Notes under the pieces: model-generated | Seen by the model: the letters and a program-made list of their open reading frames with translations, nothing else | Databases searched by the model: none | Told to the model about the DNA's origin: nothing | Made by a program: the position numbers and the translations under genes | NCBI RefSeq assembly: GCF_019173455.1 | Contig: NZ_JADPQH010000001.1 | Location: 930,001 to 994,000 of the forward strand | Reading direction: 5' to 3' | Length of the DNA stretch: 64,000 nucleotides | Source of the DNA: Nesterenkonia sp. Act20 | GTDB lineage: Bacteria; Actinomycetota; Actinomycetes; Actinomycetales; Micrococcaceae | Part shown: one piece after another, positions 28,485 to 46,269 of the stretch | Layout of the letters: the number at the start of each line of letters is the position of its first letter | Numbering within the stretch: position 1 is the first letter of the stretch

Positions 28485-30722
28485 TCAGGCGTCGTCGTCC
28501 TCGGTGTTCGAGGAGCCGTCGCCCTCGACCACGGGGGCGAGGCTGAGCTTTCCGCGGTCATCGACCTTGGAGATCTCGACCTGGATGCGCTGGCCGACGC
28601 TGACGACGTCTTCGACGTCATCCACGCGCTTGCCCTCGTTGAGCTTGCGCAACTCGGAGATGTGCAGCAGGCCATCCTTGCCCGGGGTCAGCGAGATGAA
28701 CGCGCCGAACGTGGTCAGCTTGACCACGGTGCCCAGGTACCGCTCGCCGATCTCGGGGACCTGCGGGTTGGCGATCGCGTTGACCGCGGCGCGGGCTGCC
28801 TCAGCAGCTTCGCCGTTGGTCGCGCCGATCAGGACGGTGCCGTCATCTTCGATCGAGATGTCGGTGCCGGTGTCCTCCTGGATCTGGTTGATCATCTTGC
28901 CCTTCGGGCCGATGACCTCGCCGATCTTGTCCACGGGGACCATCACCGAAATGATGCGCGGCGCGAACTCGGACATCTCATCCGGGGTGTCGATGGCAGC
29001 AGCCATGACGCTCAGGATGTGCAGGCGAGCCTCGCGGGCCTGCTTCAGCGCTGCGGAGAGCACCGAAGCCGGGATGCCGTCGAGCTTGGTGTCCAGCTGG
29101 ATGGCTGTGACGAACTCGGAGGTGCCGGCGACCTTGAAGTCCATGTCGCCGAAGGCGTCTTCGGCGCCGAGGATGTCGGTCAGTGCGGCGTAGCGGGTCT
29201 CGCCGTCGACCTGGTCGGAGACCAGACCCATGGCGATGCCTGCCACCGGGGCCTTCAGCGGCACACCGGCGTTGAGCATGGACAGCGTCGAGGCGCAGAC
29301 CGAACCCATCGAGGTGGAGCCGTTGGAGCCCAGGGCCTCAGAGACCTGGCGGATCGCGTAGGGGAACTCCTCGCGGGAGGGCAGCACCGGCACGATGGCG
29401 CGCTCAGCAAGAGCACCATGGCCGATCTCGCGGCGCTTGGGCGAACCCACGCGGCCGGTCTCACCGACCGAATACGGCGGGAAGTTGTAGTTGTGCATGT
29501 ACCGCTTGGTCTTCACCGGCGACAGGCTGTCGATGTTCTGCTCCAGCTTGAGCATGTTCAGCGTGGTGATGCCCATGATCTGGGTCTCGCCGCGCTCGAA
29601 GATGGCCGAGCCGTGGACGCGGGGAAGAACCTCGACCTCGGCGGTGAGCTGACGGATGTCCGTCAGGCCGCGTCCGTCGATGCGGACCTGATCGCGCAGG
29701 ATGCGCTGGCGGATGACCTGCTTGGTCAGCGCGCCGACGGCCTTGGAGACCTCGCCTCCGCGACCTTCGAACTGCTTGCCCTCGCCGGCGAGCTCCTCGC
29801 GGACCTCGGCCTTCAGCTCGGAGTCCGCGGTGTCGCGCTCCTGCTTGTCGGCGATCTGGTAGACCTTGCTCAGACGCTCGGAGGCGGAGGCCTCCACTGC
29901 GGCGAAGACGTCATCCTCGTAGTCCACGAAGGTCGGGACGTCGATGGCCGGCTTGGCGGCGCGTGCAGCCAGGTCAGCCTGTGCATCGCAGAGGACCTTG
30001 ATGAACGGCTTGGCAGCCTCCAGGCCCTCGGCGACGATGTCCTCGGTGGGCGCGGTGCGACCCTGCTCCTTGATGAGCTTCCAGGAGTCATCGGTGGCCT
30101 CGGCCTCGACCATCAGCACGGCGATGTCGCCGTCGACGACTCGACCGGCGACGACCATGTCGAAGACAGCGTCCTCCAGCTGGGAGTGCTTCGGGAAGGC
30201 GACCCACTGGGCGCCCTGACCTTTGTCCACGAGTGCCACACGGACTGCACCGATCGGGCCGGAGAACGGCAGACCGGAGAGCTGGGTGGACATGGAGGCG
30301 CCGTTGATGGCGACCACGTCGTAGAGGTCATCCGGGTTGATCGAGAGGATGGTCTCGACGACCTGGACCTCGTTGCGGATGCCCTTCTTGAAGGCGGGGC
30401 GCAGCGGGCGGTCGATCAGACGGCAGGCCAGGATCGCGTCGGTGGAGGGGCGACCCTCGCGACGGAAGAAGCTGCCGGGGATGCGACCTGCGGCATACAT
30501 GCGCTCTTCGACGTCCACCGTCAGCGGGAAGAAGTCAAAGCCCTCACGGGGGGACTTGCCCACCGTGGTGGCCGAGAGCAGGCTCGTGTCGTCGTCCATG
30601 GTGACCAGGACGGAACCGGCGGCCTGCTTGGCGAGGCGGCCGGTCTCGAAGGAAATCGTGCGTGTACCGAATGAGCCGTTGTCGATGATGGCTTCGGAAG
30701 TGTGAATCTCGGGACCCTGCAT
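28485..30722 (-). CDS. pnp: Polyribonucleotide nucleotidyltransferase
   Basis: 745 aa, full length. Two RNase PH domains (about 10-230 and 330-560), a KH domain ([21 protein letters not shown]) and an S1 domain ([30 protein letters not shown]). Degrades RNA 3' to 5' with phosphate in the cytoplasm. Lies after rpsO on the same strand, the classic order. Its leader contains a long nested inverted repeat (30761-30893) that may serve autoregulation. Confidence 0.98.
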
Positions 30723-30760: not shown

Positions 30761-30893
30761 CGCCAGTGAGAGAGAAGGATCTGCGTACATATGGTCGGTC
30801 TTCGATCGAAGCCCACGGGCCCGGCACGTGCTGTGCCTCCCGGAGGCTACTACCGAGGACCGGAACATATGAGTTCGATCCCTCTCACTGGCG
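30761..30893 (-). promoter_or_regulatory. Long nested hairpin in the pnp leader
   Basis: Four pairs of complementary segments nest inside each other: CGCCAGTGAGAG (30761-30772) with 30882-30893; GGATC (30777-30781) with 30877-30881; CATATG (30788-30793) with 30866-30871; CGGTC (30796-30800) with 30858-30862. Together they fold into one long interrupted stem of about 130 nt ending 38 nt before the pnp start. In E. coli a long leader stem processed by RNase III and PNPase controls pnp; a similar role here is inference. Confidence 0.7.
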
Positions 30894-31434: not shown

Positions 31435-31515
31435 CCAGCGTTTTACCACCCGGTGCGTGGATTACCGGCCCGACGGCGGGCCCGGTAAATCACGTAAGCC
31501 CAGGTAAAACGCTGG
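31435..31515. repeat. 75-bp palindromic repeat, copy 1 (with 3-bp outer extension)
   Basis: Core 31438-31512: GCGTTTTACC at one end, GGTAAAACGC at the other, 75 bp apart edge to edge; here the perfect terminal arms reach 13 bp (CCAGCGTTTTACC). Inner arms TTACC/GGTAA give a second stem. The loop (GGCCCGACGGCGGGCCC) is the most diverged of the four. The right part encodes the last residues of the methyltransferase gene. Confidence 0.85.
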
Positions 31516-32344
31516 TGTGGAGGACGGTGAGGTAGGGAAGCTGGACCGGCTTCCCCGGCGGCAGCTCCAGGTGCTCCTCGAGATACCAGTCGAGATTGGC
31601 TCGGCGGCGCTCCCGAGCCGGCTCATCGGCGGAGAGCCAGGAGCTCAGCGTGGTGGAGAGCGTGCGGATCTCCTCCGGAGTGATCGCTCGTTCCCAGCGG
31701 GTCTCCTGCGTGGTCCACCCACCGAAGAACGCCGGGTCCACCGGCGGGGTCCACCCTGGCCGGTAGACGTCCCCGGCGCGCATGATCCGGGTCAGTCGAT
31801 GCACCCAGGGCACGGAGGTGTCCAGGTAGTTCGCCACCACGGCCAGCACTCCCCCGGGCCTCAGGATCCGGCGCACCTCCTGTTGGACCAGCGCGTCATC
31901 GAACCAGTGCCAGGCCTGGGCCGCGACGACGACGTCGCAGCTCGCCTCCCCCAGTCCGGTCGCCTCCGCAGTGGTCCGGTGCACCTGAAGCCGCGGGCTG
32001 ACCTCGTCCTGGCCCCGAGTCTGATCGGGCTCTTGGCTGCGAGCCGCGAGCACCTCGGTCATCGCGATCGAGGGCTCGACTGCATGGACATGGGCTCCGT
32101 GGGCGAGCAGGGCGCGGCTGAGGATCCCGGTGCCGGCGCCGAGGTCGGCCACCACGGGGCGGGTGGGCGCGATCACCAGGATCGAGGCCACCACGTCGCG
32201 CGGATATCGGGGCCGGGCGGCGTCGTAGCGCCAGGCCTCCTGCAGGGAGGTGTCCGTGGAGAAGGAGGCGCCCAGCCGTCGTCGTCGGTCGGGGTCGGTG
32301 ATCAGCGACTGCTGGCCGGGTCGTGGTTTGGGGCGGGAGGGCAC
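31490..32344 (-). CDS. SAM-dependent methyltransferase
   Basis: About 284 aa from a GTG at 32344; the longer frame to 32542 only runs antisense-frame through ribF. Class I methyltransferase: VVADLGAGTGILSRALL (motif I), HAVEPS and VVVAAQAWHWFD. Substrate unknown. It begins 14 bp after the ribF stop, so it may be cotranscribed with truB-ribF. Its last seven codons and stop lie in repeat copy 1, which probably replaced the original 3' end. Confidence 0.82.
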   Translation of the reverse strand: MPSRPKPRPGQQSLITDPDRRRRLGASFSTDTSLQEAWRYDAARPRYPRDVVASILVIAPTRPVVADLGAGTGILSRALLAHGAHVHAVEPSIAMTEVLAARSQEPDQTRGQDEVSPRLQVHRTTAEATGLGEASCDVVVAAQAWHWFDDALVQQEVRRILRPGGVLAVVANYLDTSVPWVHRLTRIMRAGDVYRPGWTPPVDPAFFGGWTTQETRWERAITPEEIRTLSTTLSSWLSADEPARERRRANLDWYLEEHLELPPGKPVQLPYLTVLHTSVLPGLT

Positions 32345-32357
32345 GGCGCGGTCGGCA

Positions 32358-33362
32358 CTAGTCGACGGGGAGTCCGGCGAGGACCTGGCGGGTCTGGACC
32401 ACGTCCTGGTGCATCTGCTCCACCAGCTTCTCCACGCCCTCATAGGCGACCATCCCGCGCAGCCGCTGGACGAACTCCACGCGCACGTGCTGGCCGTACA
32501 GATCGAAGTCCTCGACCAGTTCTTGGGGCCGGTCGATGACATGGGACTCGACCACGCGTTCCAGTCCGTGGAAGGTCGGGTTGGAGCCCACCGAGATCGC
32601 GGCGGGCCAGCGTGCTCCGGCGGCGTCCTCCAGCCACCCGGCGTAGACGCCGTCGGCGGGGATCATGCCCTCGGAGGCGCTGGCCAGGTTGGCCGTGGGG
32701 AAGCCCAGGTCACGGCCGCGGGCCGCACCGTGGACCACCTCGCCGAGCACGGCGTGGGGGCGGCCGAGCACCTCTGCGGCGGCGGCCACATCTCCGGCGT
32801 CGAGAGCCTCGCGCACCCAGGTGGAGGAGCAGCGGCGCGAGGTCTCGGCCACGGTGTGCCCGGAGAGCGCGAAATCATCGACGCCGAGCACGCTGAAGCC
32901 GTAGCGCTCGCCCAGCTCGACCATGGTCTCGAAGTTGCCCGAGTTGCCGCGGCCGAAGCGGACATCGTGGCCGATCACGACCACGGAGACGTTGAGCAGG
33001 TCCACGAAATAGGTCTTCACGAACTCTTCCGCGGTGAGTCCTGCCAGGTCCAGGTTGTAGTGCAGCACGAGCAGCGCATCGATGCCGGACTCGGAGAGTC
33101 GCTGGACCTTCTCTGCGGTGCCGGTGAGCATGACCGGGCAGTCGTCGGGGCGGTGGACCTGCAGCGGGTGCGGGTCGAAGGTGATGGCCACGGCCTGGGT
33201 GTCGGCTTGGCTGTGGGCAGCGGCGACAAGCTGGGAGAGCACCTCCTGGTGACCCAGGTGGACGCCGTCGAAATTGCCGATGGTCACTGCGGTGGGTCCT
33301 AGTCCCTGCGGGACTTCTTCGCGACCGTTCCAGAACTGCACGTCGGAAAGCTTATCGCTCAT
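32358..33362 (-). CDS. ribF: Bifunctional riboflavin kinase/FAD synthetase
   Basis: 334 aa from the ATG at 33362, which overlaps the upstream stop by 4 bp. FAD synthetase domain with VTIGNFDGVHLGHQ (26-39) and a C-terminal riboflavin kinase domain with GRDLGFPTANL. Converts riboflavin to FMN and FAD. In an overlapping chain truB, two membrane proteins, ribF. Confidence 0.96.
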   Translation of the reverse strand: MSDKLSDVQFWNGREEVPQGLGPTAVTIGNFDGVHLGHQEVLSQLVAAAHSQADTQAVAITFDPHPLQVHRPDDCPVMLTGTAEKVQRLSESGIDALLVLHYNLDLAGLTAEEFVKTYFVDLLNVSVVVIGHDVRFGRGNSGNFETMVELGERYGFSVLGVDDFALSGHTVAETSRRCSSTWVREALDAGDVAAAAEVLGRPHAVLGEVVHGAARGRDLGFPTANLASASEGMIPADGVYAGWLEDAAGARWPAAISVGSNPTFHGLERVVESHVIDRPQELVEDFDLYGQHVRVEFVQRLRGMVAYEGVEKLVEQMHQDVVQTRQVLAGLPVD

Positions 33363-33868
33363 GCCTGGGTGCCGCGCGCGGCGGGACGTCCGGGACGATG
33401 GCGCAGCAGCCAGAACAGTCCGATGAAGGGCAGCACCAGCGGCACGAAGGCGTAGCCCTCGCCGAAGTGGGACCACACGGTGGCCTCGTTGAAGAGCTCC
33501 GGCTGCAGGTAGGTCCAGAGTCCGACGCCGAGCACCCCGGTCAACTCCACCAGGACGGCGATCAGCGCGAGGCGCCAGGCGCGCGCTCCGATGCGGGCCA
33601 GGGCCAGCGTGGCGACGATGTACACCGCGGCGGCGAACCCGCTGAGCGAGTAGGCCACTGGGGAGGCGTCGAAGTCGGTGAGGATCTGGTAGAGCGCACG
33701 GGCGAAGGAGGAGACGGCGAAGATGCCGTAGGCGGTGATGATGAGCATGCCGACGCCGCGGTTGCGCGGAGTGGGGGCCTTGCGGCCAGTACGAGCGGGG
33801 GCACCGTCGGTGCGATCGGCATTGGCCCGGCCGTCGTCGGCCGGGGTGCTGCTCAGGTTTCCGCTCAT
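33359..33868 (-). CDS. Four-helix membrane protein between truB and ribF, unknown
   Basis: 169 aa from the ATG at 33868, overlapping the upstream stop by 4 bp. A polar, Arg/Ala-rich N-terminus of about 35 residues, then four membrane helices. No family I can name. Overlaps ribF by 4 bp as well, so it is tightly coupled to the flavin and tRNA-modification genes. Confidence 0.72.
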   Translation of the reverse strand: MSGNLSSTPADDGRANADRTDGAPARTGRKAPTPRNRGVGMLIITAYGIFAVSSFARALYQILTDFDASPVAYSLSGFAAAVYIVATLALARIGARAWRLALIAVLVELTGVLGVGLWTYLQPELFNEATVWSHFGEGYAFVPLVLPFIGLFWLLRHRPGRPAARGTQA

Positions 33869-34230
33869 AGCGCGCTTCCCCACCAGATCTCCTCCAAGCG
33901 GTAGATCATCACGAATACGACGAGCCCGACGAAGCTCATCACCAGGTTGGACCAGCGGGTCTTGTCGATCATGGCCCAGACGAACACTCCCACCGGGAGC
34001 ATCAGTGCAGTGACAATATAGCCCCAGAACTCCCAGGCCTCTCCCGTGATCGAGGCGCCGGTGGCCTGCCGAATTCCGGCGTACACGGCATAGACGATGA
34101 GGTAGAGCTCGATCAGCGCCAGCGAGATGATCGAGGAATCAGCCGGGTGATCGCGCACCGCGGTCATGACCCAGCACACCACGACAGACAGTGCGCAGAC
34201 GAGGGTGCCTATGAGGAACATCACCGTCAT
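33865..34230 (-). CDS. Small four-helix membrane protein, unknown
   Basis: 121 aa, four hydrophobic helices and very short loops. It overlaps truB (4 bp) at its start and the next membrane protein (4 bp) at its stop. The two may form a complex. No family recognised. Confidence 0.72.
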   Translation of the reverse strand: MTVMFLIGTLVCALSVVVCWVMTAVRDHPADSSIISLALIELYLIVYAVYAGIRQATGASITGEAWEFWGYIVTALMLPVGVFVWAMIDKTRWSNLVMSFVGLVVFVMIYRLEEIWWGSAL

Positions 34231-35306
34231 GCAGTGGATTCCTCGGGCTGTGTCGGGGTCTCGGCGGGGGCGGTTGTGGACGGCGCGGGCAGGGCTGAGG
34301 TCTCAGCCGCGACCGGGGCGGTGGCGGGGGCGGTGGCGGGGGCGAAGACCAGTTCCGGCTTGGCCTGGTAGTCACTGGACTCTGCCGCGTCGGCGGCATC
34401 CGGTGACGCCGACGCCCCCTTCTTGGCCGGGACGTCGCGCAGCAGGGCCACTAGATCACCCTCGGGGCTGAAGGCGGCCGTGAGCTGGGGGTCCTCCCCT
34501 GTGCCGGAGGCCGTCACGCGCCGGCCGAAGCCGAGGTTGGCGGTCTCCTCAGCGGTGAGCTCGCGCGCGGGAAAGAGCTGAGCAGCGGCCTCGGCCAAGC
34601 CGATATAGCCGAAGTCCTCGCCGAGCTGTTCCAGGGTGAGGGTCTGGTCGATGCTGTAGGGACCCACCGCGGTGCGGCGCAGCGCGGTGAGATGACCGCC
34701 GACCTCAAGCGCCTCGCCCAGGTCTCGGGCCAGCGCGCGGACGTAGGTTCCGGAGGAGACCCGGACCTCGATGTCCACATCGATGAGCTTGCCGCCCTCG
34801 ATCCGGCGGATGTCGAGGACCTCGAAGGCATGCACGGTGATGGCGCGCGAGTTGAGCTCCACGTCTTCGCCGGCTCGGGCCCGGTCATAGGCGCGCCGAC
34901 CGTCGACCTTGATCGCGGAGACCGTGGACGGCACCTGCTGGATCTCACCGGTGAGCCGGGCCACTTCGGTATGGATGTCCTCCGCGCCCACCGCATTGGC
35001 GAACCTGGTCTGGAGGACCTCACCCTCGGCGTCGTCGGTGGTGGTGGACTGGCCCAGCCGCATGGTGGCGGTGTAGGTCTTGTCCACTCCGACGATGTGG
35101 GTGAGCAGCCGCGTGGCGCGGTTGATCCCGACGACCAGGACGCCGGTGGCCATCGGGTCCAGAGTCCCCGCGTGGCCGACCTTGCGCGTGCCCGCGAGTT
35201 TGCGGAGGCGACCGACCACGTCATGGCTGGTCCAGCCCGCGGGCTTGTCCACCAGGACGAGGCCGGAGCCGACCTCCAGCTCCTCGGGCTTCTGCTTCTT
35301 ACCCAT
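34227..35306 (-). CDS. truB: tRNA pseudouridine-55 synthase
   Basis: 359 aa. LVLVDKPAGWTSHDVV and the catalytic loop GHAGTLDPMATG with Asp50. Makes pseudouridine 55 in the T-loop of tRNAs. After about residue 290 there is a long Ala/Pro/Thr-rich tail (repeated PATAPATAP) of about 65 residues that most TruB proteins lack. Seven bases after rbfA. Confidence 0.96.
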   Translation of the reverse strand: MGKKQKPEELEVGSGLVLVDKPAGWTSHDVVGRLRKLAGTRKVGHAGTLDPMATGVLVVGINRATRLLTHIVGVDKTYTATMRLGQSTTTDDAEGEVLQTRFANAVGAEDIHTEVARLTGEIQQVPSTVSAIKVDGRRAYDRARAGEDVELNSRAITVHAFEVLDIRRIEGGKLIDVDIEVRVSSGTYVRALARDLGEALEVGGHLTALRRTAVGPYSIDQTLTLEQLGEDFGYIGLAEAAAQLFPARELTAEETANLGFGRRVTASGTGEDPQLTAAFSPEGDLVALLRDVPAKKGASASPDAADAAESSDYQAKPELVFAPATAPATAPVAAETSALPAPSTTAPAETPTQPEESTA

Positions 35307-35312
35307 GAACGC

Positions 35313-35813
35313 TCAGTTGGCCTCGGAGGAGCTGCGGCTGCCGGACCCGTCGGCGGCGGATTCGGCGTCGTCCTCGGAGGACTCGTCCTCCTCGACCTGC
35401 CAGCGGTAGGGCTTCTCCTCGGAGGCAGGCTGGGCGTCCTTGCGGAGTGCGGCGACGTGCTCGTCCTGCTCCCGGGCCTTGCGCAGCAGATCTTCCATAT
35501 GCGCGGCCGATTCGGGGATCTCGTCGGCGACGAACTCGAGGGTGGGGGTCAGCCGGATGTTGAGGTTTTTGCCGAGCTCGTGGCGCAGCACGCCCTGGTT
35601 GGCTGCCAGGACCGCTTCGGCGCCGGCGCGGGAATCCTCATCCGGGGCCATCACGGTGTAGTACACCGTGGAGTGCTGGAGATCGTTGGTCACGCGGGCG
35701 TCGGTGACGGTGATGAGCTCGGCGCGCTCATCCTTGACCCGGCGACGAAGCGCCTCGGCCACGATCACCTTGATGCGCTGCGCCAGTCGGGCGGCGCGTG
35801 CTGGATCTGCCAT
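35313..35813 (-). CDS. rbfA: 30S ribosome-binding factor A
   Basis: 166 aa. KH-like fold with RLAQRIKVIVAEALRRRVKDER and the downstream VYYTVM strand. Helps late 30S subunit maturation. The last 40 residues are an acidic Ser/Glu/Asp tail typical of actinobacteria. Between infB and truB, the usual order. Confidence 0.95.
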   Translation of the reverse strand: MADPARAARLAQRIKVIVAEALRRRVKDERAELITVTDARVTNDLQHSTVYYTVMAPDEDSRAGAEAVLAANQGVLRHELGKNLNIRLTPTLEFVADEIPESAAHMEDLLRKAREQDEHVAALRKDAQPASEEKPYRWQVEEDESSEDDAESAADGSGSRSSSEAN

Positions 35814-35884
35814 GGGGTGGTCCTTTCAAGAATTCTGTGTCTCAGCCTAGACCCGGTGCGGGACTCGGCGGAGCATGGAGTGCT

Positions 35885-35930
35885 GACAGGTCCGGGGACC
35901 CCGCCGTGTGGCAGAGTCCCCGGAACTGTC
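35885..35930 (-). promoter_or_regulatory. Hairpin between infB and rbfA
   Basis: GACAG-G-TCCGGGGAC pairs with GTCCCCGGA-A-CTGTC: two stems of 5 and 9 bp with one bulge. No T-run follows on the minus strand, so it is more likely an RNA processing or attenuation element than a full terminator. Confidence 0.5.
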
Positions 35931-35953
35931 GCCGGACGAACCGGCAGGCCTGG

Positions 35954-38791
<2,838 letters not shown>

Positions 38792-39004
38792 ATTTCTCCT
38801 TGTCTGGCCCACGCTTCCCCGCCGGCACCAGCGGGGCTGATGTCAGCGGTTCATCGGCGAAGGCCGTTTGAACTTCTCTGAAACCGTGACGGAGTTGCTC
38901 TGAAAAGTCATCGCGGCGAACTCATGCGTCGGTGTTCATCGGGGATCCATCTCTCTGAACCCTCTTTCTGGCCTCAGCCGCTGTGATCTGCACCGAGGTG
39001 CTTC

Positions 39005-39289
39005 TCACGAGCCGGGGCCGTTGGTGCCGATAATGTCGTGCAGCTCGAGTGTGCTCGTATCCACAGGCCTGCGGAACGCCCGGTTGAAGGCCTTCCGCTT
39101 CACTGCGGTGTCGAAGCACTCGCGCTGCGGGTGCAACCAGGCGCCTCGTCCGGGAAGAACCCGGGCGGTGTCCCACACCACCTGCTCAGGTGCGGATCCG
39201 GCGTCGTCGGCTGCGGCGAGGACAAGCCTCACCACGTCATCCTGGGCGACCTGACGGCGACAGCCGATACAGGTACGCACTGGAACCAT
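39005..39289 (-). CDS. ylxR: YlxR family RNA-binding protein
   Basis: 94 aa, DUF448: VPVRTCIGCRRQVAQDDVVRLVL and GRGAWLHPQRECFDTAVKRKAFNRAFR are the family's two conserved blocks. Small basic RNA-binding or nucleoid-associated protein usually found between nusA and infB, as here. Confidence 0.93.
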   Translation of the reverse strand: MVPVRTCIGCRRQVAQDDVVRLVLAAADDAGSAPEQVVWDTARVLPGRGAWLHPQRECFDTAVKRKAFNRAFRRPVDTSTLELHDIIGTNGPGS

Positions 39290-39345
39290 GACAGTCTACC
39301 CCTTCTCGCTGATTCGAGCAGAACTCTCTGCCCGAACGAACCCGG

Positions 39346-40323
39346 TCAGGGTGCGGCCAGCGTGGCGTCGGAGACGATGTCGATCCGCCAACCGGTGAGT
39401 TTCGCGGCGAGCCGGGCGTTCTGCCCCTCTTTGCCGATGGCCAGCGAGAGCTGGTAGTCCGGAACGACCACGCGGGCGCTGCGGGTGGCCTCATCCAGAA
39501 TGGTCACCGACTTCACCTTCGAGGGCGACAGCGAGTGGGCGATGAACTCCGCGGCGTCGTCGGAGTGATCGATGATGTCGATCTTCTCGTCGTTGAGCTC
39601 GGTCATCACAGCCCGGACACGGGAGCCCATGGAGCCGATGCAGGCACCCTTGGCGTTGATGCCCGACTGGTGGGCGCGGACCGCGATCTTCGTGCGGTGT
39701 CCGGCCTCGCGGGCGATGGCGGTGATCTCCACGCTGCCGTCGGCGATCTCCGGGACCTCGTGCTCGAAGAGCTTCTTCACCAGACCCGGGTGGGAGCGGG
39801 ACAGCGTGATGGAGGGGCCGCGCATGCCGCGGTGGACGTCGACGACGAAGGCGCGCAGCCGTCGGCCGTGGATGTACTCCTCGCCGGGGACGTGCTCCTG
39901 CGGGGGAAGCAGCGCCTCGACGCTGCCCAGGTCCACCTGGATCATATTCGGGTTGCGACCCTGCTGGATGGTGCCGGAGATCAGCTCACCCTCACGGCCG
40001 CGGAATTCGCCGAGGACCTGATCGTCCTCGGCGTCGCGGATGCGCTGCATGATGACCTGGCGCGCCGTGGAGGCGGCCACGCGGCCGAAGTCGCGGGGAG
40101 TGTCGTCAAACTCGCCGATGACCGTGCCGTCCTCGTCGCGCTCCTTGGCCCAGACCGTGACGTGACCCGTGGACTGATCGATCTCCGCCCGGGCGTGCTG
40201 CAGCGCACCGGGTGACTTGTGGTAAGCCAGCACCAGCGCCTGCTCAATGGCGGGGATCAGCCGCTCCAGCGGGATCTCTCGCTCTTTGACGAGCATGCGC
40301 AGTGCGCTCATATCGATATCCAC
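39346..40323 (-). CDS. nusA: Transcription termination/antitermination factor NusA
   Basis: 325 aa, the short actinobacterial form without the acidic C-terminal repeats. N-terminal RNA polymerase-binding domain, S1 domain (GELISGTIQQGRNPNMIQVDLG) and two KH domains (SRSHPGLVKKLFEHEVPEI; SLAIGKEGQNARLAAKLTGW). Acts in transcription pausing and termination. Preceded by rimP on the same strand. Confidence 0.97.
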   Translation of the reverse strand: MDIDMSALRMLVKEREIPLERLIPAIEQALVLAYHKSPGALQHARAEIDQSTGHVTVWAKERDEDGTVIGEFDDTPRDFGRVAASTARQVIMQRIRDAEDDQVLGEFRGREGELISGTIQQGRNPNMIQVDLGSVEALLPPQEHVPGEEYIHGRRLRAFVVDVHRGMRGPSITLSRSHPGLVKKLFEHEVPEIADGSVEITAIAREAGHRTKIAVRAHQSGINAKGACIGSMGSRVRAVMTELNDEKIDIIDHSDDAAEFIAHSLSPSKVKSVTILDEATRSARVVVPDYQLSLAIGKEGQNARLAAKLTGWRIDIVSDATLAAP

Positions 40324-40347
40324 TTGTGCCTCCGGTTAAGCCAGTCT

Positions 40348-40893
40348 CTACTCCGTGTGGGAAAACTCTACCTGCACTCGTGCCTGGGTGATCGACGCGA
40401 AACTGATCTCGGTGGGATCCGCATACTTCACCGGCATGCCCTTCTTGGGTGCCGGCTTCTGCTCGGCCACGGTGATCGCGTCTTCGCTCACGGTCTTCAG
40501 CCGGGCGAGCATCGGGCTCTCCCCGGTCTGGGTGATTTCCAGGAGTCGACCGAGGTTGCGCTCGAAGTGCCGGGGCTCGGTGAGCGGACGGGTCGCACCC
40601 GGGGTGGAGACCTCCAGCTCGTAGCTGTCGAGTTCGGGAAGCACGTCCTCTTCGTCCAGGCGAGCGGAGATGGCCTGGGAGAGTGCGGCGACCGTGTCCA
40701 GGTCGACTTGTCCGGTGCCCGAGGGAAGATCCACGGAGACCTTCAGCGTGGTGGTCCCGCCGCTGGGGCTGAGCTCGAGCTCTTCGAGATAGAGGCCCTG
40801 TTCGGTGACCGTAGGGATGAGCAGCTCGGCGATCTTCGCGGTGCGCGCATCGGTGAAGCGCTGCGCTCCGGTGGGGCGTGGGGCGATGGCCAT
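40348..40893 (-). CDS. rimP: Ribosome maturation factor RimP
   Basis: 181 aa. Two-domain RimP: LYLEELELSPSGGTTTLKVSVD and YELEVSTPGATRPLTEPRHFERNLGR, the family's most conserved block. Needed for 30S assembly. First gene of the rimP-nusA-ylxR-infB block; about 55 bp separate it from the end of repeat copy 2, which lies upstream. Confidence 0.96.
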   Translation of the reverse strand: MAIAPRPTGAQRFTDARTAKIAELLIPTVTEQGLYLEELELSPSGGTTTLKVSVDLPSGTGQVDLDTVAALSQAISARLDEEDVLPELDSYELEVSTPGATRPLTEPRHFERNLGRLLEITQTGESPMLARLKTVSEDAITVAEQKPAPKKGMPVKYADPTEISFASITQARVQVEFSHTE

Positions 40894-40945
40894 GACGGTC
40901 CTCTCAGTGGCGGGTGGTGCGTCTCCATTGTGCCTGAGACCTCCC

Positions 40946-41026
40946 CCGGCGTTTTACCTCCCCTTACGTGTTCTACCCGCCCGACGGTCCCCCTGGTAGA
41001 ACGCGTCCGCCCCGGTAAAACGCTGG
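40946..41026. repeat. 75-bp palindromic repeat, copy 2 (inverted)
   Basis: Core 40949-41023, again exactly 75 bp between the outer ends of GCGTTTTACC and GGTAAAACGC. Judged by the loop (ACCGTC on the other strand) and by the CACGTAAGGGGA arm, it is in the opposite orientation to the other three. Inner arms TCTACC/GGTAGA. The minus strand of this copy encodes the last 23 residues of the AbiEi/DUF559 protein. Confidence 0.85.
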
Positions 41027-42252
41027 GAAAAGGGGACTCCGGCCGCGTTCAGCAGTCGTCGGAGCCGGGAGGGGTCCTGCAGGTCGGCCCAGGTGAAACG
41101 GAGGACGCTCAGTCCGAGGGCCCGCAGCCCGTCCTCGCGCTCCTTCTCCGCGATCACGACCTCCTCGGCGCTCCGCCCCGAGAGCACCCTCGAATTCCGA
41201 TACTTCATGAGCCCGTCGAACTCGCCGACGACTCCCGGGCCCTCCCAGAAGAAGTCAGTGATGCAGGACTTCCCGTTCGGCAGCAGGAACATGCGCTGGA
41301 GAACCGGGGCGGAGAATCCCAGTTCGGCGATCCGCACCCGCGCCCAGGACTCCCCCGCGGACTCCGCCCTCGCGTCGGCGAAGGTCCATGCAGCGTCCCA
41401 GCGCGCGCGACCTCGCGCGGATGCGACCAGACGCAGCCAGGGTTCGACGGCGGAGAGCGTTCCTGCCGGGCGCTCGCCCTCGCCGACGCGGCCCGCCTTA
41501 TAGGCGTCGAGCACCACCACCGCATCCGCGAAGTTCAGCCGGGGCACGGTGTCGGCCAGCACCAGGCCCAGCGGTTCCACGCAGACCTCACGTCCTGCTG
41601 TGAGCTCCGCGTCGAAGGCCTGCAGCACAGGAAAAGGCTGCCGGAGGATGGCCTGCTCGTAGGCAGGTTTCCATTCCTCCCCCAGCCCCTCCCTCAGCCG
41701 GTCTCGGAGCGTGCGCGGGTACTGGTGATGACGGGTGCCGATGGCGCGCAGTGCTGCGGGACTCGGGGCGCCGCCGTCGTGCGTCTGTGGGTGAGCCGGT
41801 GGGTGAGTCCGCTGGAGACGTTCGATCGCGGTGGTGGAGGCTCGACCGGTCAGCGACGGCGCCGGATGCAGACCGGTCTCCGAGTTGTGTGCGGTCCGCA
41901 CCGTCACGGCGTCGGGAGGGTGGAGCAGTCCTAGACCATGCAGCGTCAGGGCGGTGGTACGGCAGAAATGCGTCTGCGGAGCCAGTAGGTGCACGGCGGC
42001 TGCGGCAATCAGATGGCGGTCCCAGGGGGCACTCTGCAACCACGTGGAGGGGTGGAGGTAGACGCCCCGTCGGATGCGCAGCAGCTCTCCAGCATCGACC
42101 AGCGCACTGAGCCGACGACCGATCTCCTCCACATCGCTGCTCGCAGACATTCCGATGCCGCGGGCACCACCGGAGCTGTCCCAGAGATCCTTGGCGCGGA
42201 AGAGTCGGCCGCGCGGCAGCGCAGTGGCAAGCGACGTGAGGTGTGTGGCCAT
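40954..42252 (-). CDS. AbiEi-like winged-helix protein with DUF559 nuclease-like domain
   Basis: 432 aa. The N-terminal about 100 residues resemble the AbiEi antitoxin winged helix (LVDAGELLRIRRGVYLHPS). The C-terminal domain (about 300-405) has the DUF559/Vsr-like PD-(D/E)XK layout: ITDFFWEG, VVGEFDGLMKY and EKEREDGLRALGLSVLRFTWADL. Such fusions are frequent in Micrococcales; function is unknown, possibly defence or element maintenance. The gene stands alone, bracketed by inverted copies of the 75-bp repeat, and its last 23 codons are repeat-derived. No partner AbiEii toxin is visible nearby. Confidence 0.75.
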   Translation of the reverse strand: MATHLTSLATALPRGRLFRAKDLWDSSGGARGIGMSASSDVEEIGRRLSALVDAGELLRIRRGVYLHPSTWLQSAPWDRHLIAAAAVHLLAPQTHFCRTTALTLHGLGLLHPPDAVTVRTAHNSETGLHPAPSLTGRASTTAIERLQRTHPPAHPQTHDGGAPSPAALRAIGTRHHQYPRTLRDRLREGLGEEWKPAYEQAILRQPFPVLQAFDAELTAGREVCVEPLGLVLADTVPRLNFADAVVVLDAYKAGRVGEGERPAGTLSAVEPWLRLVASARGRARWDAAWTFADARAESAGESWARVRIAELGFSAPVLQRMFLLPNGKSCITDFFWEGPGVVGEFDGLMKYRNSRVLSGRSAEEVVIAEKEREDGLRALGLSVLRFTWADLQDPSRLRRLLNAAGVPFSQRFTGADAFYQGDRRAGRTRKGR

Positions 42253-42325
42253 GGGAGAAGCCTGCTCCTGCGGCGTCGCTCTCGGGGCATTTCTGCTGAA
42301 CTGTGGAGAACTCTCCTCCCTCCCC

Positions 42326-42400
42326 GCGTTTTACCGTCCCTTGCGAGGAATACCACCCTGACCGTCGCCCAGGTAGAGCACGTAAGGGGAGGTAAAACGC
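42326..42400. repeat. 75-bp palindromic repeat, copy 3
   Basis: Same ends and length. Left arm CCCTTGCG, right arm CACGTAAGGGGA; inner stem TACC/GGTA; loop contains GACCGTC. It lies in the divergent gap between the AbiEi/DUF559 gene and proS, 64 bp before the proS start, so it may affect transcription of either. Confidence 0.85.
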
Positions 42401-42463
42401 CCGGGAGCGGTGGCCCTTAGACTTGGGCCGGTAGAAGATCCCTGACCGGAAACGAGAACACCT

Positions 42464-44287
42464 GTGCCGCTCCGCCTGTCCCACCTGTTCCTCCGCACGC
42501 TGCGCGACAACCCGGCCGACGCCGAGGTCGCCAGCCACCAGCTGCTGGTCCGCGCTGGCTACATCCGCCGCGCCGCGCCGGGCGTCTACAGCTGGTTGCC
42601 GCTGGGACTGACCGTGTTGCGGAAGATCGAGGCGATCGTCCGCGAGGAGATGCACCGGATCGGCGCCCAGGAGGTCCACTTCCCGGCCCTGCTGCCCAAG
42701 GAGCCTTACGAGGCCACCGGCCGCTGGGACGACTACGGCGACGGCATCTTCCGGCTCAAGGACCGCAAAGAGGCGGACTACCTGCTGGCACCGACGCATG
42801 AAGAGGTCTTCACCCTGCTCGTGAAGGACCTCTACAGCTCGTATAAGGACCTTCCGCTCTCGATCTACCAGATCCAGACCAAGTACCGCGATGAAGCACG
42901 CCCCCGGGCGGGCCTGCTCCGAGGCCGCGAGTTCATCATGAAGGACTCCTACTCCTTCGCGCTGACCGAAGAGGACCAGCGCGCGGCCTATGACGCCCAC
43001 CGCGAGGCCTACCTGCGCATCTTCGACCGCCTCGGGCTGCCCGTGGTCCCGGTCAACGCAGTCTCCGGTGCGATGGGCGGATCCGCCTCGGAGGAGTTCC
43101 TCTTCCCCTGCGACATCGGAGAGGACACCTTCGTCGAGTCCGACGGCGGCTTCCGCGCCAACGTCGAGGCCGTCACCACGCCGACGCCGGAGCCCATCGA
43201 CCACACGAACCTGCCCGCTGCGCAGGTGCACCACACCCCCGGCACCGACACCATCGCGACCCTGGTCGACGCCGCGAACACGCATCAGCCGCGCGAGGAC
43301 CGGGCCTGGACCGCGGCGGACACGTTGAAGAACGTGGTCGTCGCAGCCGTGCTGCCGGATGGTTCACGGCGCATCGTGGTCCTGGGCGTGCCCGGTGATC
43401 GCGACGTGGATCTCAAGCGCGCCGAGGCCACCATCGGCGGACTCATCGGCGTCGGCGGCGAAGTGGCGCTGGAGGCCGCCAACGAGGCCGATCTGAAGAA
43501 GAACCCCGGACTGGTCCGCGGCTATATCGGCCCCGGCCTGTCCCTGGACGCTCCGGTCCTCGGCGATGAGGGCAGCACCGGGATCACCTACCTGGTGGAT
43601 CCGCGCGTGGTGTCCGGCAGCAGCTGGATCACCGGCGCCAATGAGGCCGATCAGCACGTGTTCGGCCTGGTGGCCGGGCGCGACTTCGGCTGGGACGGGA
43701 TCATCGAGGCCGTGGTCGTCCAAGAGGGCGACCCCGCTCCGGACGGCTCCGGCCCGCTGCGCACCCGCCGCGGCATCGAGATGGGGCACATCTTCCACCT
43801 CGGCACCCGCTACGCCGAGGCGCTGGGCCTGCAGGTCCTCGATGTCAACGGCAAGCTCGCCACCGTGACCATGGGCTCCTACGGCTTCGGAGTCACCCGC
43901 GCGCTGGCCGCCATCGCCGAAGCCACGCATGACGAGAAGGGCCTGATCTGGCCCGCCGCGATTTCTCCAGCCGATGTGCACCTGGTTGCCACCGGCAAGG
44001 GCGATGAGGTCTACGCTGCGGCCGAGTCGCTGACCACCCAGCTCGAGGACGCCGGTCTCAGCGTGATCTACGACGATCGCCCGAAGGTCTCCCCCGGCGT
44101 GAAGTTCGGCGACGCCGAGCTCCTCGGAGTTCCGATGCTGGTCACCGTGGGCCGCGGGCTGAAGAACGGCACGATCGAGCTCAAGGATCGCCGCTCGGGC
44201 GAGTCTCATGAGGTCCCCGTGGATGAGGCCGCAGCGGCGGTGCTCGAGCACGTCAAGGGCCTGCAAGACGTCAAAGGCGCGCGCTGA
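42464..44287 (+). CDS. proS: Prolyl-tRNA synthetase (bacterial type, with editing domain)
   Basis: 607 aa, GTG start. Class II motifs: [26 protein letters not shown] (motif 1), [25 protein letters not shown] (motif 2) and [16 protein letters not shown] (motif 3). The editing insertion lies between motifs 2 and 3 (about 220-400). Charges tRNA-Pro in the cytoplasm. Possibly coupled to the permease gene that follows. Confidence 0.98.
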
Positions 44288-44346
44288 GCGAAGCCCTCGA
44301 GGCTGCCACTGACCTGCTGGTCGGGGGCAGCCTCGAGATCACCTGG

Positions 44347-45111
44347 GTGACCCTGCTGCTGCTCATCGCCGCAGGCTTCGCGGCCGGGTGGGTGGACGCC
44401 GTCGTCGGCGGGGGTGGTCTGCTGCAGCTGCCCGCAATGCTGATGATTCCGGGGATCACCCCGGTGCAGGCACTCGCCACGAACAAGCTCGGCTCGATCT
44501 TCGGCACCACCACCTCGGCGATCACCTACGCCCGGCGGGTGAAGCCTGCCATGGGCACCGCCCTCCCGATGGCCGTGGCGGCGCTGCTGGCAAGCTACTG
44601 CGGCGCCGTCGTCGCCGCCTCGCTGCCGGAGCGGATCATCCTGCCGCTGATCCTGCTGGCGCTGATCGGCGTCGGCGTGTTCACCGCGGTCCGCCCGCAG
44701 GTGGGCCAGCTGGAGAAGCTGCGCCACGTCGGCATGGGGCATCTGGCGCGCGCCGTGATGATCGGCATGATCTTAGGCTTCTACGACGGCGTGCTGGGTC
44801 CGGGCACCGGGACGTTCCTGGTCATCGCCCTGGTGACCGTGCTGGGGTATAACTTCCTGAACTCCTCCGCGCAGGCCAAGGTGGTCAATGTGGCCACGAA
44901 CCTGGGAGCGCTGCTCTACTTCGCACCCGCCGGGCACGTGCTGCTCGGGCTGGGCCTGGTGCTCGGCGCGGCGAACATGGCCGGCGGCTATCTCGGCGCC
45001 CGGATGGCGATCGCCAAGGGCTCGAAGTTCATCCGTGTGGTGTTCCTGATCGTGGTCTTCGCCCTGGTGATCAAGCTGGGCTACGACGTCGCCGTCGACC
45101 TGCTCGGCTGA
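44347..45111 (+). CDS. TauE/SafE family permease
   Basis: 254 aa from a GTG at 44347; about eight membrane helices with GWVDAVVGGGGLLQLPAML and GFYDGVLGPGTGTFLVIALV. The open frame extends back to a CTG at 44284 that overlaps the proS stop, so the true start may be upstream and unusual. Probably exports or imports a sulfur-containing or other organic anion; substrate unknown. It ends just before repeat copy 4. Confidence 0.85.
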   Translation: MTLLLLIAAGFAAGWVDAVVGGGGLLQLPAMLMIPGITPVQALATNKLGSIFGTTTSAITYARRVKPAMGTALPMAVAALLASYCGAVVAASLPERIILPLILLALIGVGVFTAVRPQVGQLEKLRHVGMGHLARAVMIGMILGFYDGVLGPGTGTFLVIALVTVLGYNFLNSSAQAKVVNVATNLGALLYFAPAGHVLLGLGLVLGAANMAGGYLGARMAIAKGSKFIRVVFLIVVFALVIKLGYDVAVDLLG

Positions 45112-45125
45112 GCCCGCCCCACCCC

Positions 45126-45200
45126 GCGTTTTACCCCCTCCTGCGAGGTTTACCGGCCAGACCGTCACCGGGGTAAAGCACGCAAGGGGAGGTAAAACGC
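45126..45200. repeat. 75-bp palindromic repeat, copy 4
   Basis: Same 10-bp ends and 75-bp length; the second arms are TGCGAGGTTTACC and GGTAAAGCACGCA and the loop contains GACCGTC. It fills the convergent gap between the TauE permease and the lipoprotein gene, where it could act as a bidirectional terminator, although no T-run is present. Confidence 0.85.
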
Positions 45201-45210
45201 TGGGGAGGGG

Positions 45211-46269
45211 TCAGTCGAGGCTGGCCAGCAGGTCCGCGGCTTCTTCCTCCAGCTCGACGACGGCGACCTCCGCCTCCTCCTCGGACAGCGAGTCCTGCAG
45301 CGGCACCATCACGGTCACGATATGCGAGCCGGTGCGCAGCGTGACTGCCGCACTGTGCTCGTTCTCCCCTGCGGAGCTGATCCGTCGGGTGATGCCAAAG
45401 GCAGCATCGGCTTCGGAGGTGAGGTCCACTCGGTCGATCGAGGTGGAGGTCTCGACAGCATCATCAGCGCTGCGCTGCGCGGTGTAGGAATCACACTCAT
45501 CCAGACCATCCTGCTCGGCGGTGAAGTGGGATTCGGCGGCGCGCCAGTCAGGGAAGGTGTAGATGACGGCCTGGCGCTCGGCAGGGAGATCCACGGTCAC
45601 CGGCTCAGGCTCCTCCTCCGAGTCCTCCCCGTCCTGCTCGGAATCTTCGGTGTCCGCGTCTTCGGCAGAATCGCCGGAACTTTCTTCACCGTCGGAATCC
45701 TCGCTGTCGGACCCGTCCGCGGAGTCCTCCTCGGTGCTGGCCAGTTGGACGGCTGCGCCAGAGCCAGAATCCGAAGCCTCCGGCTCCGCGTCTCCGGTCT
45801 CGGCGTCGCCGCCGGTCTCCGCCTCTCCGCCGGGCGCAGAACCAGCGGAGCCGCCCGACCCGTCGGCGAAGGCCACGAGCGCCCCGGCGGGCACTGGCAC
45901 GGCCGATCGCACCACGTACTGCTTGCACTCCGGGGGATCGACCACCAGCTTCTGCAGCTCGGTCTCGATGTCCCGCAGACCCGACCAATAATCATCGGTG
46001 TCGGTCAGCGTGGCCTCTGGGTACCTGGCTTCGAGCTGGGCGCGCATCTCTTCATGCGAAAGCTGGTTCCCCGTGGGCTCAGGCGCCTGCGCCTGGGAGT
46101 CCCCTGCGCTGGTGCCGGCGTCGGCTGCCGGCTCCGTGGAGTCCTCCACCGTCGCCGTCTCACATCCGGTGAGCAGCACCATGGCGAGCAGTCCGAGGGT
46201 GATGCCGGCGCGGGCGCGCCGCGGAGGCGCGCCAGCAGCAGAGGCAGAGGAAGAGGGGAAGAAAGTCAT
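45211..46269 (-). CDS. Lipoprotein with acidic low-complexity middle, unknown
   Basis: 352 aa. Signal peptide with lipobox VLLTGC (Cys36). A globular part is split by about 90 residues of Ser/Glu/Asp/Gly-rich sequence (about 140-225). The second folded part has paired Cys candidates and an aromatic beta-rich character, somewhat like extracellular sensor domains of actinobacterial kinases. Family not established. It overlaps no neighbour; the GNAT gene ends immediately upstream (1 bp). Confidence 0.7.
   Translation of the reverse strand: MTFFPSSSASAAGAPPRRARAGITLGLLAMVLLTGCETATVEDSTEPAADAGTSAGDSQAQAPEPTGNQLSHEEMRAQLEARYPEATLTDTDDYWSGLRDIETELQKLVVDPPECKQYVVRSAVPVPAGALVAFADGSGGSAGSAPGGEAETGGDAETGDAEPEASDSGSGAAVQLASTEEDSADGSDSEDSDGEESSGDSAEDADTEDSEQDGEDSEEEPEPVTVDLPAERQAVIYTFPDWRAAESHFTAEQDGLDECDSYTAQRSADDAVETSTSIDRVDLTSEADAAFGITRRISSAGENEHSAAVTLRTGSHIVTVMVPLQDSLSEEEAEVAVVELEEEAADLLASLD

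Follow-up and report, generated by a model that had tools for sequence, protein, structure and literature searches.

The stretch analysed in this study (hereafter the window) covers 64,000 nucleotides of Nesterenkonia sp. Act20, positions 930,001 to 994,000 of contig NZ_JADPQH010000001.1, and contains four palindromic elements, two of which enclose a gene for a protein with AbiEi-like and Vsr-like features. The question raised by this locus is what these palindromes are, and what keeps and spreads them. An earlier note on this DNA had offered either selection on a folded structure or copying by a dedicated machinery. Our comparisons suggest that the elements are the sites of a DNA-binding protein, and by a wide margin the strongest candidate for it is the AbiEi/Vsr-like protein. 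The palindromes are probably the cognate sites of this protein, and gene and palindromes together probably form a unit that is gained and lost in the manner of a REPtron, the arrangement known from repetitive extragenic palindrome (REP) systems in which a gene flanked by repeats accompanies dispersed copies, as set out in parts of PMC3116915 and PMC3733652.

All four elements are exactly 75 bp long and carry the ends GCGTTTTACC and GGTAAAACGC, as the earlier note had described (Table 1). The end-pair pattern was matched four times in the window and 0 times in 100 dinucleotide shuffles, and the terminal 10-mer (at most one mismatch) occurs nine times in the window, at the eight ends and once inside element 2. 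The proposed division into 10-19-17-19-10 bp is better read as four half-sites round a centre GAC-S-GTC, with TACC at positions 7-10 and 26-29 of the element, 19 bp apart and mirrored in the other arm. A symmetrised consensus was derived from 79 copies in six genomes (16 in G000, the 2.93 Mb genome of the window in two contigs; 13 in G011, 16 in G016, 14 in G021, 2 in G022 and 18 in G023). It runs from a C-rich flank through GCGTTTTACC, six loose positions, T, N, CG, W, G and three loose positions to TACC, and then through loose positions and (G)AC-S-GT(C) into the mirror image. TTTTACC and TACC, with ends spaced 19 bp from each other, stand out as its strongest positions, and the flanks are C-rich on the left and G-rich on the right. 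The repeated unit is a half-site of about 10 bp that occurs four times, with a spacing of 19 bp in each arm and the arms mirrored. The constant length claimed before is a property of the window subtype and not of the family in general, as related subtypes have centres of 16 bp and once of 15 bp (CCGTATACGG in N. massiliensis, TGCGGATCCGCA in N. cremea). Nor are all four elements strictly intergenic, for the 3' end of a neighbouring frame extends into those at 31438 and 40949. Two observations on arrangement may be recorded here: in N. massiliensis (L080 6688-6800) a third half-site, GGTAAAGCGC, lies 19 bp outside the element and extends the 19-bp period, and beside the G016 orthologue of element 31438 (L115 1470-1541) there are extra tandem copies of the C-rich flank with the outer half-site (CCCACCCTGCGTTTTACC).

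Table 1. Palindromic elements and the enclosed gene in the window (positions counted from its first nucleotide)
Feature	Position	Strand	Description
Element 1 (A-type)	31438..31512	no strand	half-sites TTTTACC (element positions 4-10) and TACC (26-29), each mirrored in the other arm; overlaps 3' end of reading frame 31490-32542 (-); site has copies in G011, G016, G021 and G023 and an apparent relic in G022
Element 2	40949..41023	no strand	3' end of AbiEi/Vsr-like gene, rimP side; traversed by the reading frame of that gene; same place in G011, G016, G021, G022 and G023
Gene for AbiEi-type winged-helix protein with Vsr/DUF559-like nuclease signature, 432 aa	40954..42252	-	proposed partner of the elements
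Element 3	42326..42400	no strand	between proS and AbiEi/Vsr-like gene, upstream of the gene; same place in G011, G016, G021, G022 and G023
Element 4 (solo)	45126..45200	no strand	14 bp downstream of the stop codon of a TauE-type gene and 10 bp short of where the convergent frame ends; present in G011, G016, G021 and G023, absent in G012, G018 and G022

The gene enclosed by elements 2 and 3 lies between rimP and proS. Its product was recognised by Pfam as AbiEi_4 with 25.5 bits against a cut-off of 25, and it also matches the AbiEi models of PADLOC. In 38 family proteins, the one from the window included, the AbiEi-type N-terminal part was found in every case by a PADLOC model (a profile-based assignment), and the alignment has E301, R305, D333, E344, D346, G347, K350 and R372 as invariant residues. 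Their pattern (E...R, D and E-x-D-G-x-x-K) is what we take, in name and in superfamily, to be the Vsr/DUF559-like PD-(D/E)XK nuclease signature. At an E value of 0.01 Pfam returned only AbiEi_4, DUF559 and, once, DUF4232 for these proteins, and none of the 38 matched the Y1/HUH transposase family. There is no gene for a partner nucleotidyltransferase toxin beside the window gene. Beyond Nesterenkonia, 23 genomes from other genera of the order were sampled, and 11 of them contain homologues; the search of plasmids gave one partial match, from Collinsella (E 5e-11, 35.6% over 29% of the query), and that of phages gave no match.

Since homologues are present in 28 of 30 Nesterenkonia genomes, mere presence of the gene is a weak link to the palindromes, and it is the matching by lineage that carries the argument. 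Among the 82 places with a Nesterenkonia homologue, 81 were examined, a fragment of 94 aa being excluded. A flanking palindrome was scored where at least 24 of 36 pairs were formed between 60 bp inside and 400 bp outside the match, and 832 windows of 460 bp served as background. Palindromes were present in 77 of the 162 flanks, as compared to 1.3% of the background windows, and 50 of the 81 homologues have at least one of them (27 on both sides, 23 on one side). The left and right palindromes of one gene have a mean similarity of 0.79 (lowest 0.44, n = 27), and for palindromes of different genes in one genome the value is 0.46 (maximum 0.55, n = 35). Protein identity and palindrome similarity go together over 49 genes (Mantel r 0.59, 0/999 permutations). 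In 68 palindromes outside the lineage of the window gene (lineage A), in the finding of which the 19-bp period played no part, the self-similarity of the arms was 0.394 at a shift of 19, 0.234-0.281 at other shifts and 0.272 at 19 in random stretches; shift 19 was the best in 42 of them. The sequence of the palindrome differs with each gene lineage and the 19-bp period stays constant. The arrangement recurs in other Micrococcales: of 19 loci from other genera, 13 contain one or more palindromes somewhere within about 3.4 kb and 10 contain two or more, the corresponding figures for block-shuffled controls being 2.1% and 0 of 380, and shift 19 was the best in 11 of 23 of these palindromes.

The same matching is seen with the dispersed copies. 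A-type elements are present in the six genomes that have the A-lineage gene (three places in G022); G012 gave one weak match, and none was found in G018 and G019. A second gene of the family is located in G000 at C1:236597-237676, and its lineage (the b-lineage) has CCTGGGNNGTTGAGNNNTCCGG half-sites. At up to two mismatches G000 contains 30 such b-type half-sites (reversed control 0), of which 26 form 13 complete palindromes, all at an offset of 36 bp. The number of b-type half-sites is 18-30 in the six genomes with a b-lineage gene (G000, G018, G019, G021, G022 and G023) and 5-11 in three genomes without it (G011, G012 and G016); these counts include the copies flanking the gene, and the reversed controls gave 0-3 per genome.

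As to the extent of the A-type family, the pattern TTTTACC-N15-TACC-N17-GGTA-N15-GGTAAAA, with at most three mismatches in its 22 fixed bases, occurs at 17 places in G000 and nowhere in the reversed-pattern control, and 11 of the 17 lie within C1:844-1230 kb. Exact end pairs number 13, with 12 of 75 bp and one of 74 bp. A small number of copies, or copies without a shared length, would by the earlier note have told against its observation; for this subtype neither was encountered. Scanning of the named contigs with the pattern gave 34 stretches, 31 from Nesterenkonia and three from Flavobacteriia (L090, L109 and L111); the latter are without the subtype features and were taken as chance matches, judged by eye. 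A sequence-only profile built from 70 copies has matches in 15 of 30 Nesterenkonia genomes at E 0.01. At E 0.0001 with stricter filters it matches in 12 of 295 genomes of the family, all from Nesterenkonia, one of 32 genera, and finds no element in the other 283. A search of plasmid DNA with the element as query gave one chance-like piece of 21 bp only, and none of the 37 pattern stretches in viral contigs is a relative. About 16 elements of a TTTACC type (31 strand matches) are present in N. massiliensis (G014; loci L257, L259 and L204), where L259 also carries TTTTAC-like palindromes. In N. cremea (L083, L084 and L101) several elements have the very same palindrome as their inner part, which gives the impression of recent copying.

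The A-type copies are under constraint. For 15 of the 16 G000 elements that were checked, one or more other species carry a copy at the corresponding position, a single matching flank being sufficient. Motif sites outside the search pattern differ less than spacers, with per-site values of 0.067 and 0.254 between G000 and G016 (14 pairs), 0.062 and 0.280 for G011 (11 pairs), 0.087 and 0.444 for G023 (15 pairs) and 0.114 and 0.487 for G021 (11 pairs); these pairs consist of found copies only, so that lost copies are missing from the rates. If the motif had drifted like the spacer, the copies still passing at two mismatches of 22 would be 5.6% for G016, 3.2% for G011, 0.04% for G023 and 0.01% for G021.

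Units and solo copies also vary in presence. In G020 and G002, among other species, the unit is missing between rimP and proS, which are neighbours there (alignment gaps 7 bp and 40 bp, respectively), and a unit after proS in G027 is absent in G029. At the 3' junction of the TauE gene (window 45111-45211; L151, L150, L152, L278 and L279) G002 and G020 have a whole unit of another subtype, and this junction, which holds a solo A-type element in the clade of the window and is empty in G012, G018 and G022, is possibly a preferred site. One solo element of G011, G016 and G023 is missing in G000, with a difference of 78 bp to G011 between flanks that are 94-96% identical to it. A 3-bp GCG repeat at this empty site is conceivable as a target duplication, but GCG is also the end of the element itself and no clear duplication was seen. 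Since G023, which is more distant by ProRS identity, has the element, the comparison favours a loss in G000, insertion as against excision not being proven.

These features can be brought together in a putative mechanism. The elements would be double-stranded DNA sites, each consisting of four half-sites of about 10 bp with the arms mirrored round a short symmetric centre, and the gene between two copies would encode an AbiEi winged helix joined to a Vsr/DUF559-like PD-(D/E)XK nuclease, which would recognise its own palindrome. Two to four protein molecules may bind one palindrome through their winged helices; the nuclease domain may then nick or cut at the edges of the palindrome, and repair would copy it elsewhere. 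Each gene lineage would have its own palindrome, gene and flanking palindromes being gained or lost at a site as a unit, and some lineages would have scattered about 10-20 solo palindromes over the genome. The dedicated copying machinery of the earlier note has in this way gained a candidate, a gene family with DNA-binding and nuclease-like signatures that is flanked by lineage-specific palindromes; the copying itself we infer.

A number of points weigh against this interpretation. At the threshold used, 85 of the 162 flanks and 31 of the 81 genes are without a palindrome, and the homologue near proS in G014, a genome with about 16 elements, is among the places without a flanking one. Taken over all gene pairs, the plain rank correlation between protein and palindrome similarity is 0.04 (p 0.18) and thus nil; the Mantel signal comes from relatives that share more than about 50% protein identity. 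The 81 loci and the 79 elements include orthologues and are not independent. G022 has the A-lineage gene yet few A-type copies, and G012, without a b-lineage gene, still has two complete b-type palindromes. Pfam recognises DUF559 in only five of the 38 proteins, weakly, and AbiEi_4 in 13; a profile search of the PDB matched no solved structure, and a single-sequence structure model had a pLDDT (predicted local distance difference test) of 33.5 and was unusable. What the sequences show directly is the architecture, the constraint, the association with the gene, the matching by lineage, the dispersal and the empty sites; binding, cutting and copying are steps that we infer from these. Further, the A-type copies are old, occupying shared sites across several species, and they are constrained; a function that is being maintained would account for this no less well than active copying would. 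If the system were purely selfish, the strong constraint on its old copies would be the main fact left without an explanation.

In a second explanation the protein is an autorepressor acting through the upstream palindrome and the other copies are operator or titration sites kept for the host, with no copying. The constraint at orthologous sites across several species agrees with such a regulon or decoy system, as does the autoregulation of AbiEi and Rv2827c through inverted repeats, which for Rv2827c are four in one promoter (in the relevant part of PMC7319586). According to the same part, known members of the AbiEi group bind two or four inverted repeats. Since binding to such repeats is established for AbiEi proteins, the upstream copy is likely to serve as an operator as well, also in our preferred reading. 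Operators alone would not account for the palindromes downstream of the gene, for the solo copies or for gain and loss. Palindromes lie downstream too, as in the 27 of 81 genes that have them on both sides, and five solo sites (L003, L009, L013, L025 and 45126) are at convergent junctions, 10-21 bp from both stops. Moreover, the neighbouring genes are ordinary, with no common function seen in Pfam, and the presence of units and solo copies varies between species. We regard this explanation as unlikely, though it is the most serious of the alternatives.

A passive miniature transposon is much less probable. Miniature inverted-repeat transposable elements (MITEs) are short, have inverted ends and are dispersed. 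The palindromes are like them in these respects and in having empty sites in relatives, and it could be supposed that some other transposase moves them, with the AbiEi/Vsr-like gene as a passenger or a mere neighbour. Dispersal at many places and presence or absence between species would follow from this. A passenger does not explain that many unrelated palindromes each match one lineage of a single gene family, and the motif sites remain constrained. The elements are also unlike MITEs in that their internal half-sites are constrained like the ends and the partner gene is not a known transposase; at the best of the empty sites no clear target duplication was seen, the 3-bp GCG repeat mentioned above being possible.

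That the elements act as RNA or as a cruciform, for instance as a bidirectional terminator, an mRNA 3' end element or a structured RNA, is very improbable on the present data. Their inverted symmetry, the C-rich left and G-rich right flanks and the stop codons close by at several sites would be in keeping with it, and the earlier note had pointed to pairing that is kept while the sequence varies. Pairing is kept mainly since both arms fit one consensus. At the spacer positions it was found to be close to that of independent letters over the 79 copies, with z from -3.4 (pair 32/44) to 2.2 (pair 24/52), and no clear compensatory stem changes were found at these positions within subtype A. Two outer motif pairs of this subtype lie above the level of the shuffles, though few changes underlie this (1/75, z 2.4; 3/73, z 4.5). 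Across all subtypes the arms change together more than in shuffles (267 cells with changes on both sides, against 166.5), and the covariation term of the consensus fold is small (-0.38 of -9.26 kcal/mol). This cross-subtype covariation separates subtypes with different consensus, as is equally expected of a symmetric protein site, and does not discriminate between the readings. Four species keep the same asymmetric inner arms at one site, and, given also the lack of clear spacer covariation, the selection on a folded structure that had been proposed is not supported. As for the setting, three elements (L004, L012 and 42326) lie between divergent frames and, besides the convergent sites, the others are in tandem junctions, the frames being partly from a simple GC3 call; this mixture argues against a pure terminator role. 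No T-run was seen in the element flanks inspected, and one copy (L028) adjoins an ordinary hairpin with a T-run. At gathering scores Rfam gave no match at the four window elements and Actino-pnp only. This Actino-pnp RNA (RF01688) is located at window 30794-30864 (-), upstream of pnp at 28485-30722.

Chromosome-organising sites like matS or parS, suggested by 17 protein-site-like copies of which 11 are clustered, are just as improbable, as the cluster is at neither dif (C1:345 kb in G000, placed by what we take to be the dif pattern) nor dnaA (C1:1819 kb), for which reason a terminus organiser was rejected, and as the element was not found in 283 of 295 family genomes and a second, unrelated family occurs in the same genome.

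Returning to the AbiEi/Vsr-like protein and its cognate palindromes, the closest likeness is with the REP systems and their associated tyrosine transposases (RAYTs), organised as REPtrons or TIRtrons. Both have short palindromes mostly outside genes, many of them near 3' ends, and in two species most REP repeats lie between convergent genes within 20 bp of both 3' ends, according to parts of PMC3116915 and PMC3733652. Both also have a dedicated gene flanked by copies along with dispersed copies, a repeat of its own for each gene, and several genes per genome, as far as these parts describe the REP side. A REP is defined in a part of PMC3733652 as a hairpin of 20-40 bp with a GTAG or CGTC tag. 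The Nesterenkonia element is unlike this in being about 75 bp long with four half-sites and a 19-bp period, in lacking a hairpin so tagged and in that pairing is not its conserved feature, and the protein is AbiEi/Vsr-like without a Y1/HUH family match. With the type IV AbiE antitoxins (AbiEi, Rv2827c) the protein shares the AbiEi-type N-terminal part, and members of that group bind inverted repeats (part of PMC7319586). It differs from them by the C-terminal nuclease signature, by standing alone in the window between rimP and proS, and by palindromes that are also downstream and dispersed. The invariant signature residues and the weak DUF559 matches recall the Vsr/DUF559 nucleases, unlike which the present family is joined to an AbiEi-type part and tied to the palindromes of its own lineage.

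Because the defining features of RAYT systems, AbiE toxin-antitoxin systems and structured RNAs that were looked for were not found, we set this system apart from all three as new, and by organisation alone it may count as a kind of REPtron. It has the appearance of a copying repeat system of a kind not recognised before. In the open-access library searched, no description was found of a link between AbiEi/DUF559 proteins and palindromes or of the Nesterenkonia repeats, preprints and most subscription papers being outside this scope. As a wider and tentative proposal, for which we would claim somewhat less than even chances, the Micrococcales may harbour a class of selfish systems in which an AbiEi winged helix fused to a Vsr-like nuclease copies its own palindrome of about 75 bp, with many independent specificities and several systems per genome; such a class would be REP-like, having arisen from a nuclease and an antitoxin instead of a tyrosine transposase. 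These outcomes provide a possible partner and function for a gene family whose role was not recognised. As every lineage has a DNA site of its own, the many lineages offer a series, provided by nature, in which to study how a winged helix chooses its target. If the protein does copy the palindromes, this would be a second, independent origin of REP-like repeats, through a nuclease of another superfamily.

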